Under the pieces are notes generated by a model that was given only the letters and a program-made list of their open reading frames with translations, did not search any database and was not told the origin of the DNA. From a bacterium (GTDB lineage: Bacteria; Krumholzibacteriota; Krumholzibacteriia; LZORAL124-64-63), in assembly GCA_024231905.1 (NCBI GenBank), contig JAAEQC010000033.1, positions 248,001 through 312,000 on the forward strand: a stretch of DNA of 64,000 nucleotides, in the 5' to 3' direction. Below, one piece after another: positions 27,349 through 39,189 of the stretch; within the stretch, counting starts at the first letter, position 1, and every line of letters begins with the position of its first letter. The translations under genes were made by a program, and so were the position numbers.

Positions 27349-28068
27349 CTAGAACCATCCCTTCCACCAGGGCCTTTCGGTGACCTTTACCTCGTGATCC
27401 ACCAGCGAGACCTCGCCCGCCTCGTCAAGCAGAGCGTAACCGGTCCAGCTCTCGGGCAGTCCCAGGTAGCGCGTGCCCTCCGCCTCTCGGTCGAACCACT
27501 GGTGATGATGCCCGAAGAACCACCAGCGCGGCCGGTAGCGTTCGGCCAGACGTTCCAGTTCCGGAACACCCGGAGTTCCATAGTGCTCGAGGCCCGGAGT
27601 GCTGGGTACGCCGATGCCGGCGGGGCAGTCATGCGTGAGCACCAGGTCGACCTCGGCCGAATCGTGGGCCAGGCAGGCCTGCAGGTCGTGGTCGGTGATC
27701 TCGCAGCCGCGGGGCGTGATGGCCGCGTCCATGTAGCGCGCGCCGCCCAGGCACAGTCCGCGCCAGCCGCCCAGCCGGTGGATCGCGCCGCGCGGCACGA
27801 AGGTCACCACGTCGGAGTAGCGGGAGGCCAGGTCGGGCAGCTCGGCGTGGTCCTCGTGGTTGCCCTCGATGCAGGCCACCGGCCGCAGGAAGCTGCGACC
27901 GCCGCGTTCGAAATGCTCGCGCATGGTGTCGCGGAAGAAGCCGAAGTCGCCGGTCACGAAGACCTGGTCGATGGGCCGGCCGAGCGATTCCTCGGCGTGG
28001 CGGACCTGCGCGTCGATCACCTCGTAGCGGGTGTGGACGTCGCTGATGATCAGGATCGGGCCGCTCAC
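27349..28068 (-). CDS. Metallophosphoesterase
   Basis: ILIISDVHTRYEVIDAQV, VTGDFGFFRD, EGNHEDHAEL, LTHDCPAGIG, FGHHHQW. Confidence 0.88.
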   Translation of the reverse strand: MSGPILIISDVHTRYEVIDAQVRHAEESLGRPIDQVFVTGDFGFFRDTMREHFERGGRSFLRPVACIEGNHEDHAELPDLASRYSDVVTFVPRGAIHRLGGWRGLCLGGARYMDAAITPRGCEITDHDLQACLAHDSAEVDLVLTHDCPAGIGVPSTPGLEHYGTPGVPELERLAERYRPRWWFFGHHHQWFDREAEGTRYLGLPESWTGYALLDEAGEVSLVDHEVKVTERPWWKGWF

Positions 28069-30134
28069 GACGGCGCGCCGAAATCGAGTTGAAGGCCGTC
28101 CTGCAGGGCCTTGATCTGGACGAAGGCGGACTTGAGAGCCTCGCGTTCGACATCGTCCAGGTCGACGGGCGCCAGCAGGTTGTCCACCGTCAGCTTGGCC
28201 GTGCGCCGGCGGCTCTGGTGCCGCAGACGCAGGTTCAGCAGCGTGCGGAAGGCGAGTCGCGCTTCGGACGAGGTCTTATCCTTGATGTGCCCCGCCCGAC
28301 CCAGCTCCCGCAGACGATCGAGGGTACTGGTGACCGTCACGCCATGCTGCAGGGCCCGCAGTCGCGTCAAGTCCACCAGTTGGGCCTGCACGCCCTTGAT
28401 ATCCAGCACGCTGCGGCCGTCCTCGCCGTCCTCGAGCACGAAGCGGCCGAAGGTGTTCAGCGGCGGCTCGTAGGCCAGCACGCTGTGGGCCAACAGCGGC
28501 AGGAAGCGCGGATGCCGTTGGACCGCGGTGGTCAGGTGCTCCTGCAGTGCGGGTACCAGTGTGCCCTCGTCCAGCTCGCCGCGGAAGTCGAAGAAGAACT
28601 TGGCGCGCAGCAGGTCGTCCGGCTCCAGGCCGGTCAGCCAGCGATCGAAGGTGGCGCGCCAACCGGACAGGGACAGGCAGCAGTCGGGCTCGCTGGCCAT
28701 GATCCTGCCTTTGCAGTAGGCGTAGCCCGATCCGGCCAGCAGGTCGGACAGGCGGGCGCCCATCCGCAGGAAGTACTGCTGCACGTACTCGAAGTCCTCG
28801 TCGGGCACGTCCTCGAAGATGAGCGCGTGGTCCTGGTCGGCCAGCAGGGTGACCTCGCTGCGGCCCAGGCTGCCCATGAGCATGAAGTCGAAGCGGGCCG
28901 GCGGCGGGCCTAGCTCGGCGACGATGAACTCGACGGCTTTCCGCACCACGCCGTCGGCGTTGGCCGAGAGCATGCGGCTGGTCTCCACGGCGTCGGCGCC
29001 TTGCTTCATCATCAGGGCGGCCAGGTCGCGGGTGCGGCGGCTGACGGCCTCCAGATCGTCCAGGTTCTCGGCGGAGTGGATGTTCAGTTCACGCGGCTGC
29101 GACAGGCGCGCCGCCACGGCCATGAAGCCGGTCCGGCCCTGGACCACGATGCGCGACAGGGTGAGCGTGACGCGCATCGTGTCGCCGTCCTTGTGGACCA
29201 GTTCGACCTCGTAGCGGGACGGCGGCTCGATGCCGTCGGTGACGTCCTGCCAGAAGCGACGGCCACGGTCGGTCTCCTCGTCGGTGGGTCGTATGAGATC
29301 GGCCGGATCCAGCCCGGCGAATTCGTCTCGCTCATAACCCAGCAGGTGCAGCATGCTGCGATTGGCGTAGAGGCCCTCTCCGGCCATGGACATCAGGATG
29401 GCTTCGCCCGCCGACTCGACCAGCGAGCGGTACTTCTCCTCGCTGCCCCGCAGGGCGGCGGCGGCGCGCAGGCGGCCGCGCTCGGCCTGGAAGCTGGCGC
29501 GCAGCAGGACGACCATCAGCAGGGCGACGACGGCCAGGATAACGAGCACCGCCGTCTGCAGGTTGCTCTTCAGGGCGGCGATCTCGGCGTCGACATCCTC
29601 GGTGTACACCCCGGTGCCGATGATCCAGCCCCAGGGCTGGAATCCCTTCACGTAGGACAGTTTGGGCACGATGCGGGTACTGTCGTCCTTCCACTGCCAC
29701 ATGTAGTCCACGTAGCCGGCGCCGTCGCGCTGGACGACGCGGACCATCTCCACGAACAACCGCTTGCCCTCGGGATCTCCGAAGGAGTTCAGGTCCTGGC
29801 CTTCCAGATCCGGCCGGTACGGGTGCACCACCATGCGCGGGACCAGGTCGATGACGAAGAAGTAGTCCTTGCTCTGTTGCCCGTAGTGCAGGTTGCGCAC
29901 CTGGGCCACGGCCTGGGCCTGCGCCTGCCGGCGGGTCAGCCCTCCGGCCTCTTCCTCGGCGGCGAAGCGGGCCATGACGTTCCAGGCCGACTCGGTCAGC
30001 TCGCGGATCATGAGCCGCTTCTGGTCCATGACCACCCGGTCCAGCGAGGGCAGCAGGTACAGAAACACGACTCCCGAGAACAGGATGATGGCCAGCAAGG
30101 CGGGCAGGACGGTTCGCAGCGCGAGCGATTTCAT
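28065..30134 (-). CDS. Membrane sensor: cache domain + PAS + DUF294-type putative nucleotidyltransferase
   Basis: Cache signature (KDYFFVIDLVPRMVVHPYRPDLEGQDL...GWIIGTGVYTEDVD), PAS region, FMLMGSLGRSEVTLLADQDHALIFED nucleotidyltransferase motif. Confidence 0.85.
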   Translation of the reverse strand: MKSLALRTVLPALLAIILFSGVVFLYLLPSLDRVVMDQKRLMIRELTESAWNVMARFAAEEEAGGLTRRQAQAQAVAQVRNLHYGQQSKDYFFVIDLVPRMVVHPYRPDLEGQDLNSFGDPEGKRLFVEMVRVVQRDGAGYVDYMWQWKDDSTRIVPKLSYVKGFQPWGWIIGTGVYTEDVDAEIAALKSNLQTAVLVILAVVALLMVVLLRASFQAERGRLRAAAALRGSEEKYRSLVESAGEAILMSMAGEGLYANRSMLHLLGYERDEFAGLDPADLIRPTDEETDRGRRFWQDVTDGIEPPSRYEVELVHKDGDTMRVTLTLSRIVVQGRTGFMAVAARLSQPRELNIHSAENLDDLEAVSRRTRDLAALMMKQGADAVETSRMLSANADGVVRKAVEFIVAELGPPPARFDFMLMGSLGRSEVTLLADQDHALIFEDVPDEDFEYVQQYFLRMGARLSDLLAGSGYAYCKGRIMASEPDCCLSLSGWRATFDRWLTGLEPDDLLRAKFFFDFRGELDEGTLVPALQEHLTTAVQRHPRFLPLLAHSVLAYEPPLNTFGRFVLEDGEDGRSVLDIKGVQAQLVDLTRLRALQHGVTVTSTLDRLRELGRAGHIKDKTSSEARLAFRTLLNLRLRHQSRRRTAKLTVDNLLAPVDLDDVEREALKSAFVQIKALQDGLQLDFGAPS

Positions 30135-32878: not shown

Positions 32879-33145
32879 GAAGCGCCTCCCCGGCAATCCG
32901 GAGGAGGCGCTTCGATCTGGTACCCCGTACGTCCCAGTATGCGAAACAAATGCGAGTCGCCCCTCTTTCGCCAATAGCGCAGGCAATCTTCTGTGTATCA
33001 ACAAATTCCAGAGGTTCTGAGGGGCCGCCTCAGGATATCCGAATTCGGTTAGCTGGCTGACCGGTCAAAGCCTCCCAGCTTCTAATCTGGGACCAAACCT
33101 CCACAATGCTGCCTTTGCCTCGGATGGATTATTTGGTAGGCACAC
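32879..33145 (-). repeat. tRNA-3'-end/hairpin repeat unit U9 (extended conserved tract, ends in GGATGGATTATTTGGTAGGCACA)
   Basis: Hairpin 32879-32913; GGTACCCCGTACG 32919-32931; near-identical to U7 and U11 through ATATCCGAATTCGGTTRGCTGGCTGACC. Confidence 0.88.
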
Positions 33146-33209
33146 CGGTTCGGAGCGAAAATACGAGCGGTTCTCGGACTGGGTCCGGGTGTCGACGTAA
33201 CCTCCACGC

Positions 33210-34481
33210 TTAGAGGAGAGTACCACCCCGCCCCTGCCTCCCGCTGACCAGCACCCGGTGCATCCACAACATGTGCACCAGATCCCGATCCCCTGGTCGC
33301 GCAGCCAGCGTCCCCCGGTAGGACCCTTGCCGCCGCACGGTCTCGAGCAGCGACACCACGTGCTCATCCCCCATGGATATCAGACAGGCATGCCCCGTGG
33401 CCGCGTTGCGCATCACCACCCCGGCTTCGTTGTCCACCATCTCGAGGCGGTCACTCACCTGCAGCGGGTCCAGGCTCACGAGCCGCTTCCGCCGCAGGTG
33501 CTTGTTGATGCTGAGCAGGATTCCGTCCGCCATGTGTGAGGGTGTGATGCGCGCGAGACAGTCGCGGCCACTGCAGGCATCGCTCTGTTCGTAGCCACAC
33601 GCCAGGCAGGGTCCCGGGTCTTGGATGATCACGGCCTTGCGGCCGGCGGGACGCCAGACGTTCGAGGAAGTCGGCCCGAATATAGTGACCGTGGGCAGAC
33701 CCACCGCGGCGGCCACGTGACCCGTCCCTGAATCGTTGCCGATATGGAGGTCGAGGCCGGCCAGGATCGCGGCCACCAGGCCGATCGATTGCCCCACCAG
33801 CAAATGGTGGTGCCCGGCGGGCAGCGCGGCATGGAGGCGGGACACCTCGCGGTCCGTCTTCTTGCGTCCCAGCAGCACGAGGTGGGCGCCGAACTCCCGG
33901 GTCAGCCAGTCGCAGACCGTAACGAATCCTTCGAGGCCCCACTGCTTGGGCTGGTATCCGGCGCTCGGATTCACCGCGACGATCAACGGGCGGTTGCGGC
34001 GGGTAAAGCGTTGGTCGATCCACTGCCGGGCCGCGGTGGCGTCCTCGGGTCGGAGGGCGATTTTCGGCGCCGTGCGCCGCGGTTCGTAACCGTGGAGGGC
34101 GAGCCCATCCAGAAGGCCGCGGTAAAGATGCTTGCGCCAGGTGGGGACTCCCACGTGCTGCACCCGCCCCGCGGCACCGGTCCGGGCGGGCACGTATCCG
34201 GGCGGGAAGGAACACTCGACGTTAAAGACCTGGTCGTAGCCCTGGAGGTGGTGCTCGAGCCCGGCGACGGGTTCCGGCTGCAGGAAGTCGTCGGCCAGCC
34301 CGTGATAGAGTTCCCATCCCTCGGGCCGGGCCATAACCGTCACCCGGGCGGCCGGATGATGCCGCCGGATTTCCCGCACCACGGGCAGGGCCAGCACATT
34401 GTCGCCCAGGTTATCGACACGCCGGATGAGGATGCGCCGCGCGGGATTGCGACGGCGCGAAGAAGAAGGTCGGCCCGACAT
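33210..34481 (-). CDS. Glycosyltransferase family 9 (heptosyltransferase-like) with extra C-terminal PqqD/RRE-like region
   Basis: ILIRRVDNLGDNVLALPVVREIRR, VAVNPSAGYQPKQWGLEGF, GNDSGTGHVAAAVGLPTVTIFGPTSSNVWRP; C-term QVSDRLEMVDNEAGVVMRNAATGHACLISMGDEHVVSLLETVRRQGSYRGTL. Confidence 0.85.
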   Translation of the reverse strand: MSGRPSSSRRRNPARRILIRRVDNLGDNVLALPVVREIRRHHPAARVTVMARPEGWELYHGLADDFLQPEPVAGLEHHLQGYDQVFNVECSFPPGYVPARTGAAGRVQHVGVPTWRKHLYRGLLDGLALHGYEPRRTAPKIALRPEDATAARQWIDQRFTRRNRPLIVAVNPSAGYQPKQWGLEGFVTVCDWLTREFGAHLVLLGRKKTDREVSRLHAALPAGHHHLLVGQSIGLVAAILAGLDLHIGNDSGTGHVAAAVGLPTVTIFGPTSSNVWRPAGRKAVIIQDPGPCLACGYEQSDACSGRDCLARITPSHMADGILLSINKHLRRKRLVSLDPLQVSDRLEMVDNEAGVVMRNAATGHACLISMGDEHVVSLLETVRRQGSYRGTLAARPGDRDLVHMLWMHRVLVSGRQGRGGTLL

Positions 34482-34486
34482 GGGGA

Positions 34487-34672
34487 TCAGTAGTAGCCGT
34501 AGCCGCCGCCCACCGGTTCGGCGGGAGAGGTCGAGTCAGAGCAACCGAAGGTGCTGAGCGAGACGACGGAGCACGTCGCCGTGGCGATCACCGTGTAGCC
34601 GATCCCCTTGAGGACCTTGCGGCGGGTGGGCTTGGCAGCACCAAGCGTCGGCTTGCGTTCCTTGTCGGACAT
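34487..34672 (-). CDS. 61-aa peptide with RR-containing leader, Cys, and GGGYGYY C-terminus (candidate modified peptide or small lipoprotein)
   Basis: MSDKERKPTLGAAKPTRRKVLKGIGYTVIATATCSVVSLSTFGCSDSTSPAEPVGGGYGYY; stop codon is 5 nt upstream of the GT9 start. Confidence 0.7.
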   Translation of the reverse strand: MSDKERKPTLGAAKPTRRKVLKGIGYTVIATATCSVVSLSTFGCSDSTSPAEPVGGGYGYY

Positions 34673-34770
34673 GGTTTCCCCCCACTCGAACTCGAAAGGC
34701 ATGAAGTCGAGATGGAGGGAGTGTATCTGAGAACGTGGGGAGAGTCAATGAGGGCCGGTTCCGCGAGGGG

Positions 34771-34934
34771 TGTGCCTACCAAATAATCCGTCCGCGTTGA
34801 CATATAGATACTTAGGGAACCGCGAGAGTCCGACGGTCGACTAGCCCGGATTCGGAGTTTCCACCGATGGATCAGATAGATCCAACAGTCCCAGTAGATC
34901 AAATAGAGGCCGGATGGAATAAATGGTAGGCACA
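34771..34934. repeat. MITE-like ~164-bp segment bounded by inverted copies of the TGTGCCTACCAnnTAnTCCnTCC motif
   Basis: Left TGTGCCTACCAAATAATCCGTCC; right GGATGGAATAAATGGTAGGCACA. Confidence 0.5.
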
Positions 34935-35355
34935 GGAGGCGCTGTCGGCCCAGATCGAGGAACTGGAAGAGCGGAGCCGCACCCTCCAGGAGAGGCGCTC
35001 CAGCCTCGACCTGCCGGCCCTGAAGACCGAGTTCCTGAACGAGATCCTGACCAACCTGCAGGGCGTCGTCGAGGCAGTCCCCAATCCACAAAAAAAGCAC
35101 CTTCTCCAGCTGCTCCTGGAGAAGGTGCTTATCAAGGACCAGCGTACGATCGAAGTCTGGTATCGACTCCCCCAGTTTCCTGGTGTTCGCACACTGGGCG
35201 ATATGGTACCCCGTAGGTTACAGTGTGCGAAACATGGATCGGCGTTGCGCGGAGGCTCCGCGATCCGCGCGGTTTTCCATCTTCCGACGCTTCCCGCACG
35301 CCAAGGGGAGGCATCCACTGAACCAGCCCAGATTCGAATTCGGCAAGCTGGCTAG
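34930..35355 (+). pseudogene. C-terminal fragment of a site-specific (probably serine) recombinase, no start, reads through the tRNA-3'-end core
   Basis: Open frame AQEALSAQIEELEERSRTLQERRSSLDLPALKTEFLNEILTNLQGVVEAVPNPQKKHLLQLLLEKVLIKDQRTIEVWYRLPQFPGVRTLGDMVPRRLQCAKHG; coiled-coil plus 'VLIKD.RTIEVWYRLP' ending typical of recombinase-family C-termini. Confidence 0.65.
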
Positions 35356-36637: not shown

Positions 36638-36957
36638 AACGCCTTCCCGGAATCTCCGGGAAGGCGCTTTTATGTGGTACCCCGTAGGTCCCAGTATGCG
36701 AAACAAATGCGAGTCGCCCATCTTTCGCCAATGGCGCAGGCAATCTTCCGTATATCAACAAGTTCCAGAGATTATAAGGGGCCGCCTCAGGATATCCGAA
36801 TTCGGTTGGCTGGCTGACCGGTCTAAGCCTCCCCTTCCTCAAACCTCCCAGTTTCTGATTTTGGACCGAGCCTTCACAAGGCGGCATTTGCCGCGGATGG
36901 ATTATTTGGTAGGCATAGGCGAAGGTTGTCTCGGATGGATTAAATGGTAGGCACAGG
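36638..36957 (-). repeat. tRNA-3'-end/hairpin repeat unit U11 (extended tract, ends with two tandem GGATGGATTA..GGTAGGCA motifs)
   Basis: Hairpin CGCCTTCCCGGA..TCCGGGAAGGCG; GGTACCCCGTAGGTCCCAGTATGCGAAACAAATGCGAGTCGCCC; motifs at 36895 and 36933. Confidence 0.88.
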
Positions 36958-39113: not shown

Positions 39114-39189
39114 TGGTACCCCGTACGGGACTCGAACCCGTGTTACCGGCGTGAGAGGCCAGCGTCCTAGGCCACTAGACGAACGGGGC
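39114..39189 (-). tRNA. tRNA-Glu (anticodon CUC), CCA encoded
   Basis: GCCCCGTTCGTCTAGTGGCCTAGGACGCTGGCCTCTCACGCCGGTAACACGGGTTCGAGTCCCGTACGGGGTACCA folds as cloverleaf; loop CTCTCAC. Confidence 0.97.

Follow-up and report, generated by a model that had tools for sequence, protein, structure and literature searches.

A coupled small-peptide and GT9 glycosyltransferase gene pair carried as cargo of one unit in a tRNA-Glu-associated array

Two genes lie in tandem on the minus strand of the 64,000-nucleotide stretch analysed here (the window). One encodes a 61-aa peptide (34487..34672 including the stop; ORF 34490–34672, stop 34489–34487) and the other a GT9 glycosyltransferase of 423 aa (33210..34481), with 5 nt between the peptide stop and the GT9 start. 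Both reading frames, their sequences and the gap are as the initial annotation described them. An alternative in-frame ATG at 34702 would give a 71-aa version of the peptide; the start at 34672 is favoured because of its G6-AAACC-ATG context, in which a G-run 5 nt before the ATG (34678..34683, minus strand) reads as a possible Shine-Dalgarno element. No obvious Shine-Dalgarno sequence was seen at the GT9 start. A single sigma-70-like promoter, TTGACT-17 nt-TACACT (34720..34748, minus strand), was found upstream of the peptide only, by consensus match alone, and shuffled sequence yields 0.3 such sites on average.

Codon statistics trained on the neighbourhood genes gave a same-strand, in-frame coding signal over the peptide, the GT9 core and the C-terminal GT9 tail alike. 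The peptide frame scored a log-likelihood of +0.213 per codon, which none of 5000 shuffles reached, and the tail frame scored +0.129, the other five frames all being negative. GC at third codon positions was 0.87 in the peptide and 0.84 in the tail. Since the tail signal is in frame, neither readthrough nor a frameshift explains the tail. The coupled pair and the unusual architecture of its GT9 protein are real. The score of the whole GT9 gene, 0.18 per codon, is below that of neighbours such as the gene at 28065–30134 (307/689), which would fit horizontal acquisition.

The peptide reads MSDKERKPTLGAAKPTRRKVLKGIGYTVIATATCSVVSLSTFG|CSDSTSPAEPVGGGYGYY, the bar standing before C44. It consists of an n-region, the Tat motif TRRKVLK, a hydrophobic stretch, a lipobox-like STFG|C44 and 17 further residues that end in GGGYGYY. 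To the eye, TRRKVLK is close to the consensus S/T-R-R-x-F-L-K, with V for F, and the genome encodes TatC (E 5.7e-63). STFG|C does not fit the strict lipobox L-[AS]-[GA]-C; presumably it fits the broad PROSITE lipoprotein pattern. The peptide is best read as carrying a predicted Tat-type signal and lipobox-like site, and the earlier caveat that its leader could be a Tat or lipoprotein signal is supported. Of the composition ascribed to it at the outset, the Gly/Tyr tail is present as GGGYGYY, while the “Ser/Thr-rich core” amounts to four residues (S45, S47, T48 and S49).

The peptide has no Pfam match. It resembles the small Tat-target peptides of model TIGR02811 in being short and bearing a Tat signal, but the likeness is confined to the signal region; the match was sub-threshold (E 0.044, 14.1 bits against a cut-off of 48.45), and membership was rejected because the score lies far under the cut-off. 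Its best matches in the phylum were ordinary lipoproteins whose mature parts begin much alike (GCSDSTDP and GCSDTTDP, compared with GCSDSTSP here), and these candidates were rejected as relatives because they match as ordinary lipoprotein signals. The single other DNA match in the phylum to GYGYY followed by a stop is not an ORF end and was likewise discarded. Neither 80 genomes of the phylum nor a GTDB scan covering 421 candidate stretches yielded a relative of the peptide.

Our analysis bears out the GT9 identity of the second gene. The protein matches PF01075 (Pfam, E 3.3e-22; 79.5 bits against a gathering score of 22), and AlphaFold2 with 16 relatives gave a GT-B core with pLDDT mostly 80–97. 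Foldseek placed the model with GT9 heptosyltransferases (PDB 3tov and 1psw, E ~1e-18) and then TibC; by sequence, the closest solved structures are WaaF, a Veillonella GT9 and WaaC. All six residues that are invariant across 17 sequences (G26, D27, W181, D250, G252 and H255) are kept, so that both the conserved GD of the N-lobe and the D-x-G-x-x-H of the C-lobe are present. Assignment to the GT9 family is secure, with glycosyltransferase activity predicted from sequence and model. No named heptosyltransferase model scores the protein above its curated cut-off. A plasmid search for its relatives returned generic GT9 proteins only, and one viral contig matches it across just 36 residues.

Comparison with characterised GT9 enzymes reveals both likeness and difference. 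The protein shares the GT-B fold and the family-invariant residues with the LPS heptosyltransferases WaaC and WaaF, which are among its best structural matches (PDB 1psw, 2gt1 and 3tov). In contrast to them, it carries an additional C-terminal domain of ~93 aa, scores below the named heptosyltransferase cut-offs, and has no LPS genes in its immediate neighbourhood. GT9 also includes known protein O-heptosyltransferases such as TibC (PMC4358343). The autotransporter heptosyltransferases of the TibC/BAHT type have the same fold and a Cys-rich, finger-like C-lobe segment, here a CX2CX7CX4C motif at residues 292–308 (33558..33608, minus strand), with a similar Cys pattern in the consensus of its relatives. 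The spacing differs from that of TibC, where the cysteines are at 339/342/358/370 (CX2CX15CX11C; PMC4358343). TibC/BAHT has an N-terminal beta-barrel, whereas this model opens with the Rossmann lobe at residue 16, and no autotransporter is present here. A protein as acceptor is a proposed analogy.

The C-terminal region itself, first put at ~80 aa, is genuine and extends over ~93 aa (residues 331–423; 33213..33491, minus strand). It is missing from the 19 best-matching GT9 relatives, whose C-terminal overhangs measure 5–41 aa. Its proposed similarity to PqqD found no sequence support in Pfam, NCBIfam, or profile and PSSM scoring. The tail has no Pfam or NCBIfam match, and a PF05402 search of the genome did not match it. 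Scored with an HMM and a hand-made PSSM built from PqqD proteins of the phylum, in which PqqD domains are common (60/78 genomes), the tail did no better than its own shuffles (463/2000 and 1530/2000 in two tests). No believable relative of the tail was found in 80 genomes of the phylum. The loci inspected behind weak matches (E 0.009–0.1; L058–L060 among them) encode proteins other than GT9 and were rejected; from reading alone, we take them to be HDOD-type proteins. A true PqqD domain protein is encoded elsewhere in the genome (L022, G000:C178:44293-44490), with an HPr-kinase-like ORF and a possible signal-peptidase-like ORF, both read by eye, as its neighbours.

Structure prediction leaves the tail an orphan domain whose only likeness to an RRE is a fold predicted at low confidence. 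Modelled from its single sequence (pLDDT 47, range 35–58), it has a beta-beta-beta-alpha-alpha order, and the full-length model, with confidence about as low, shows the same order. The 50 best PDB matches of the tail include six stand-alone RRE chains (5v1u A/C/D, 5v1v_A, 6jx3_B and 8t19_A) and two SuiB chains; all matches have E >= 0.5, none is significant, and the search tool warns that low-confidence models give meaningless matches. The top query TM-score among the listed matches belongs to the PbtF RRE (0.45/0.51), at a non-significant E of 1.5. The fold order and the recurrence of RRE domains among non-significant matches are only suggestive of an RRE-like tail. RRE-fused RiPP enzymes (PF05402/PqqD-like) similarly carry an extra domain of ~90 aa, have a short peptide adjoining and display the element order predicted here; however, the tail lacks profile similarity, and the second of their three helices is not predicted. 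RREs fused to other glycosyltransferases (PF00535) have been reported (PMC12710340), and no GT9–RRE fusion was found in the literature searched.

The expectation that the peptide would recur beside other GT9 genes failed in 80 genomes of the phylum and in GTDB scans, and the GTDB scans found no relative of the tail. Since peptide and tail are single occurrences in these searches, no conserved pairing supports their co-function. Nor did the 80 genomes or the GTDB scans show a precursor conserved beside its modifying enzyme, as in RiPP clusters.

The pair is the cargo of one unit in an array of ~37 kb (window 2689–39189), which holds about ten copies or close variants of an att-like core, TGGTACCCCGTA, all on the plus strand. 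The core is the 3' end of the tRNA-Glu(CTC) gene at 39114–39189. Each site has a shared arm of ~20–30 nt on its right side and, on its left side, a terminator-like hairpin or the 3' end of a large serine recombinase gene. The unit carrying the pair spans 32918 to 35204. Its left border is a copy of the core with a terminator-like hairpin at left (32918..32929, plus strand), and its right border is a further copy (35204..35215, plus strand), preceded by the 3'-end remnant of a large serine recombinase gene (34936..35203, plus strand). The remnant is 58–69% identical to the ends of 513–518-aa recombinases in relatives.

Units of the array mostly hold 1–3 genes, and within the window the recombinases are present only as 3' remnants. 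The cargo includes RND efflux, a beta-lactamase-fold protein, a protein kinase, a lipid-type operon, the GT9–peptide pair, an alpha/beta hydrolase and an LVIVD protein. In relatives, an intact recombinase (Resolvase, Recombinase and Zn_ribbon_recom domains) ends exactly at tRNA-Glu. Large serine recombinases were located in relatives at L119:147-1688, L120:1-1809 and L121:247-1803 (~515 aa in L119 and L121), where their last codons overlap the tRNA-Glu 3' end; they are likely the integrase family of the array. No further copy of the full array repeat was found elsewhere in this genome.

The array looks as if cis-mobilizable units had accreted in tandem, and its layout resembles that of an integron. 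An integron attC reading of the dispersed repeats was rejected, as they instead repeat the 3' end of tRNA-Glu. Site-specific elements that accrete in tandem have been described for the ssrA islands of Dehalococcoides, which likewise have a serine recombinase, units in tandem with copies of an RNA-gene 3' end at their borders, and recombinase-less units (PMC3146451). The present array differs from those islands in using tRNA-Glu rather than ssrA, in its units of mostly 1–3 genes and in the reduction of its recombinases to 3' remnants within the window.

We tentatively favour, at well short of even chances, the reading that the GT9 enzyme glycosylates the peptide before Tat export. In this reading the pair is an operon of two cargo genes within an integrated mobile unit, making a very small Tat-type lipoprotein and, via translational coupling, a heptosyltransferase-type GT-B enzyme with its added C-terminal domain. 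The cytosolic enzyme would perhaps dock the peptide through its tail and transfer onto it a sugar drawn from a nucleotide donor, for example ADP-heptose, for whose synthesis the genome has a gene (RfaE/HldE domain I, 366 bits against a cut-off of 345). Putative acceptors are the four Ser/Thr residues or the tyrosines Y58, Y60 and Y61, and the modified peptide would be exported by Tat and lipidated at C44. The 5-nt coupling, the in-frame coding and the lone promoter-like site argue for this reading, as do the GT9 domain with its invariant residues, TibC among the structural matches, and the presence of TatC and RfaE/HldE domain I. The absence of LPS genes nearby would be expected of a self-contained module, and the reported RRE–glycosyltransferase fusions, the element order of the tail model and its RRE and SuiB matches point the same way. 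The lack of conserved pairing, of PqqD sequence similarity and of confident modelling (pLDDT 35–58, all E >= 0.5) argues against it, as does the export signal, which fills the whole N-terminal half of the peptide and leaves little space for a dedicated leader. A fuller version, in which an RRE-fused GT9 of a RiPP-like system glycosylates a tiny lipopeptide that is Tat-exported and membrane-anchored, as a stand-alone cassette of the tRNA-Glu array, is quite unlikely.

Other explanations would separate the two products. The enzyme may be an ordinary surface GT9 that extends LPS or another glycan, with a functionally separate, merely co-transcribed small Tat/Sec lipoprotein and a tail that is a lineage-specific extension without peptide binding. 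The best-characterised GT9 relatives are LPS heptosyltransferases, mature starts resembling GCSDSTSP are found repeatedly among the phylum's ordinary lipoproteins, and conserved pairing was not found; yet the gene is isolated from LPS genes and coupled to the peptide at 5 nt, and a mature part of 17 residues is too small to hold a usual lipoprotein domain. This explanation falls only a little short of the favoured one in likelihood. It is unlikely that the short ORF acts as a coupling or leader sequence, or is what truncation has left of a larger Tat lipoprotein, and has been kept for driving GT9 translation. Such a role would suit a GT9 start that lies 5 nt past the peptide stop without an obvious Shine-Dalgarno, at a locus where gene remnants are abundant, but the ORF has a complete export signal, an in-frame codon signal and the distinctive GGGYGYY end, and no longer homologue was found. 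Least probable is a GT9 that glycosylates another protein encoded elsewhere, with the small lipoprotein in an accessory role, for instance as a membrane anchor. Protein heptosyltransferases are known in GT9 (PMC4358343), but this one lacks a TibC-type N-terminal beta-barrel, and the neighbourhood offered no candidate substrate.

Should the tail prove to be an RRE with the peptide as its substrate, GT9 would be added to the enzyme families that make peptide natural products, and a glycosylated lipopeptide leaving through Tat would represent an unusual means of delivery. The pair is at present a single orphan example, and what it chiefly teaches is that pairs of this kind can move as cargo of cassette arrays anchored at tRNA genes.

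Around the operon, a 26-nt repeat forms an inverted pair (33121..33146, plus strand, and 34769..34794, minus strand) with arms 96% complementary. The short unit CGGATGGATTATTTGGTAGGCACA is found at both arms and at 34911–34934, 36894–36917 and 36932–36955; it is inverted around the peptide–GT9 operon and forms a 38-nt direct tandem before the LVIVD gene. A TIR-transposon reading of the inverted repeats was rejected, given no visible target duplication and the direct tandem elsewhere. The gene at 28065–30134 joins a Cache sensor and a PAS domain to DUF294 nucleotidyltransferase domains in one protein and adjoins a symporter-like gene.
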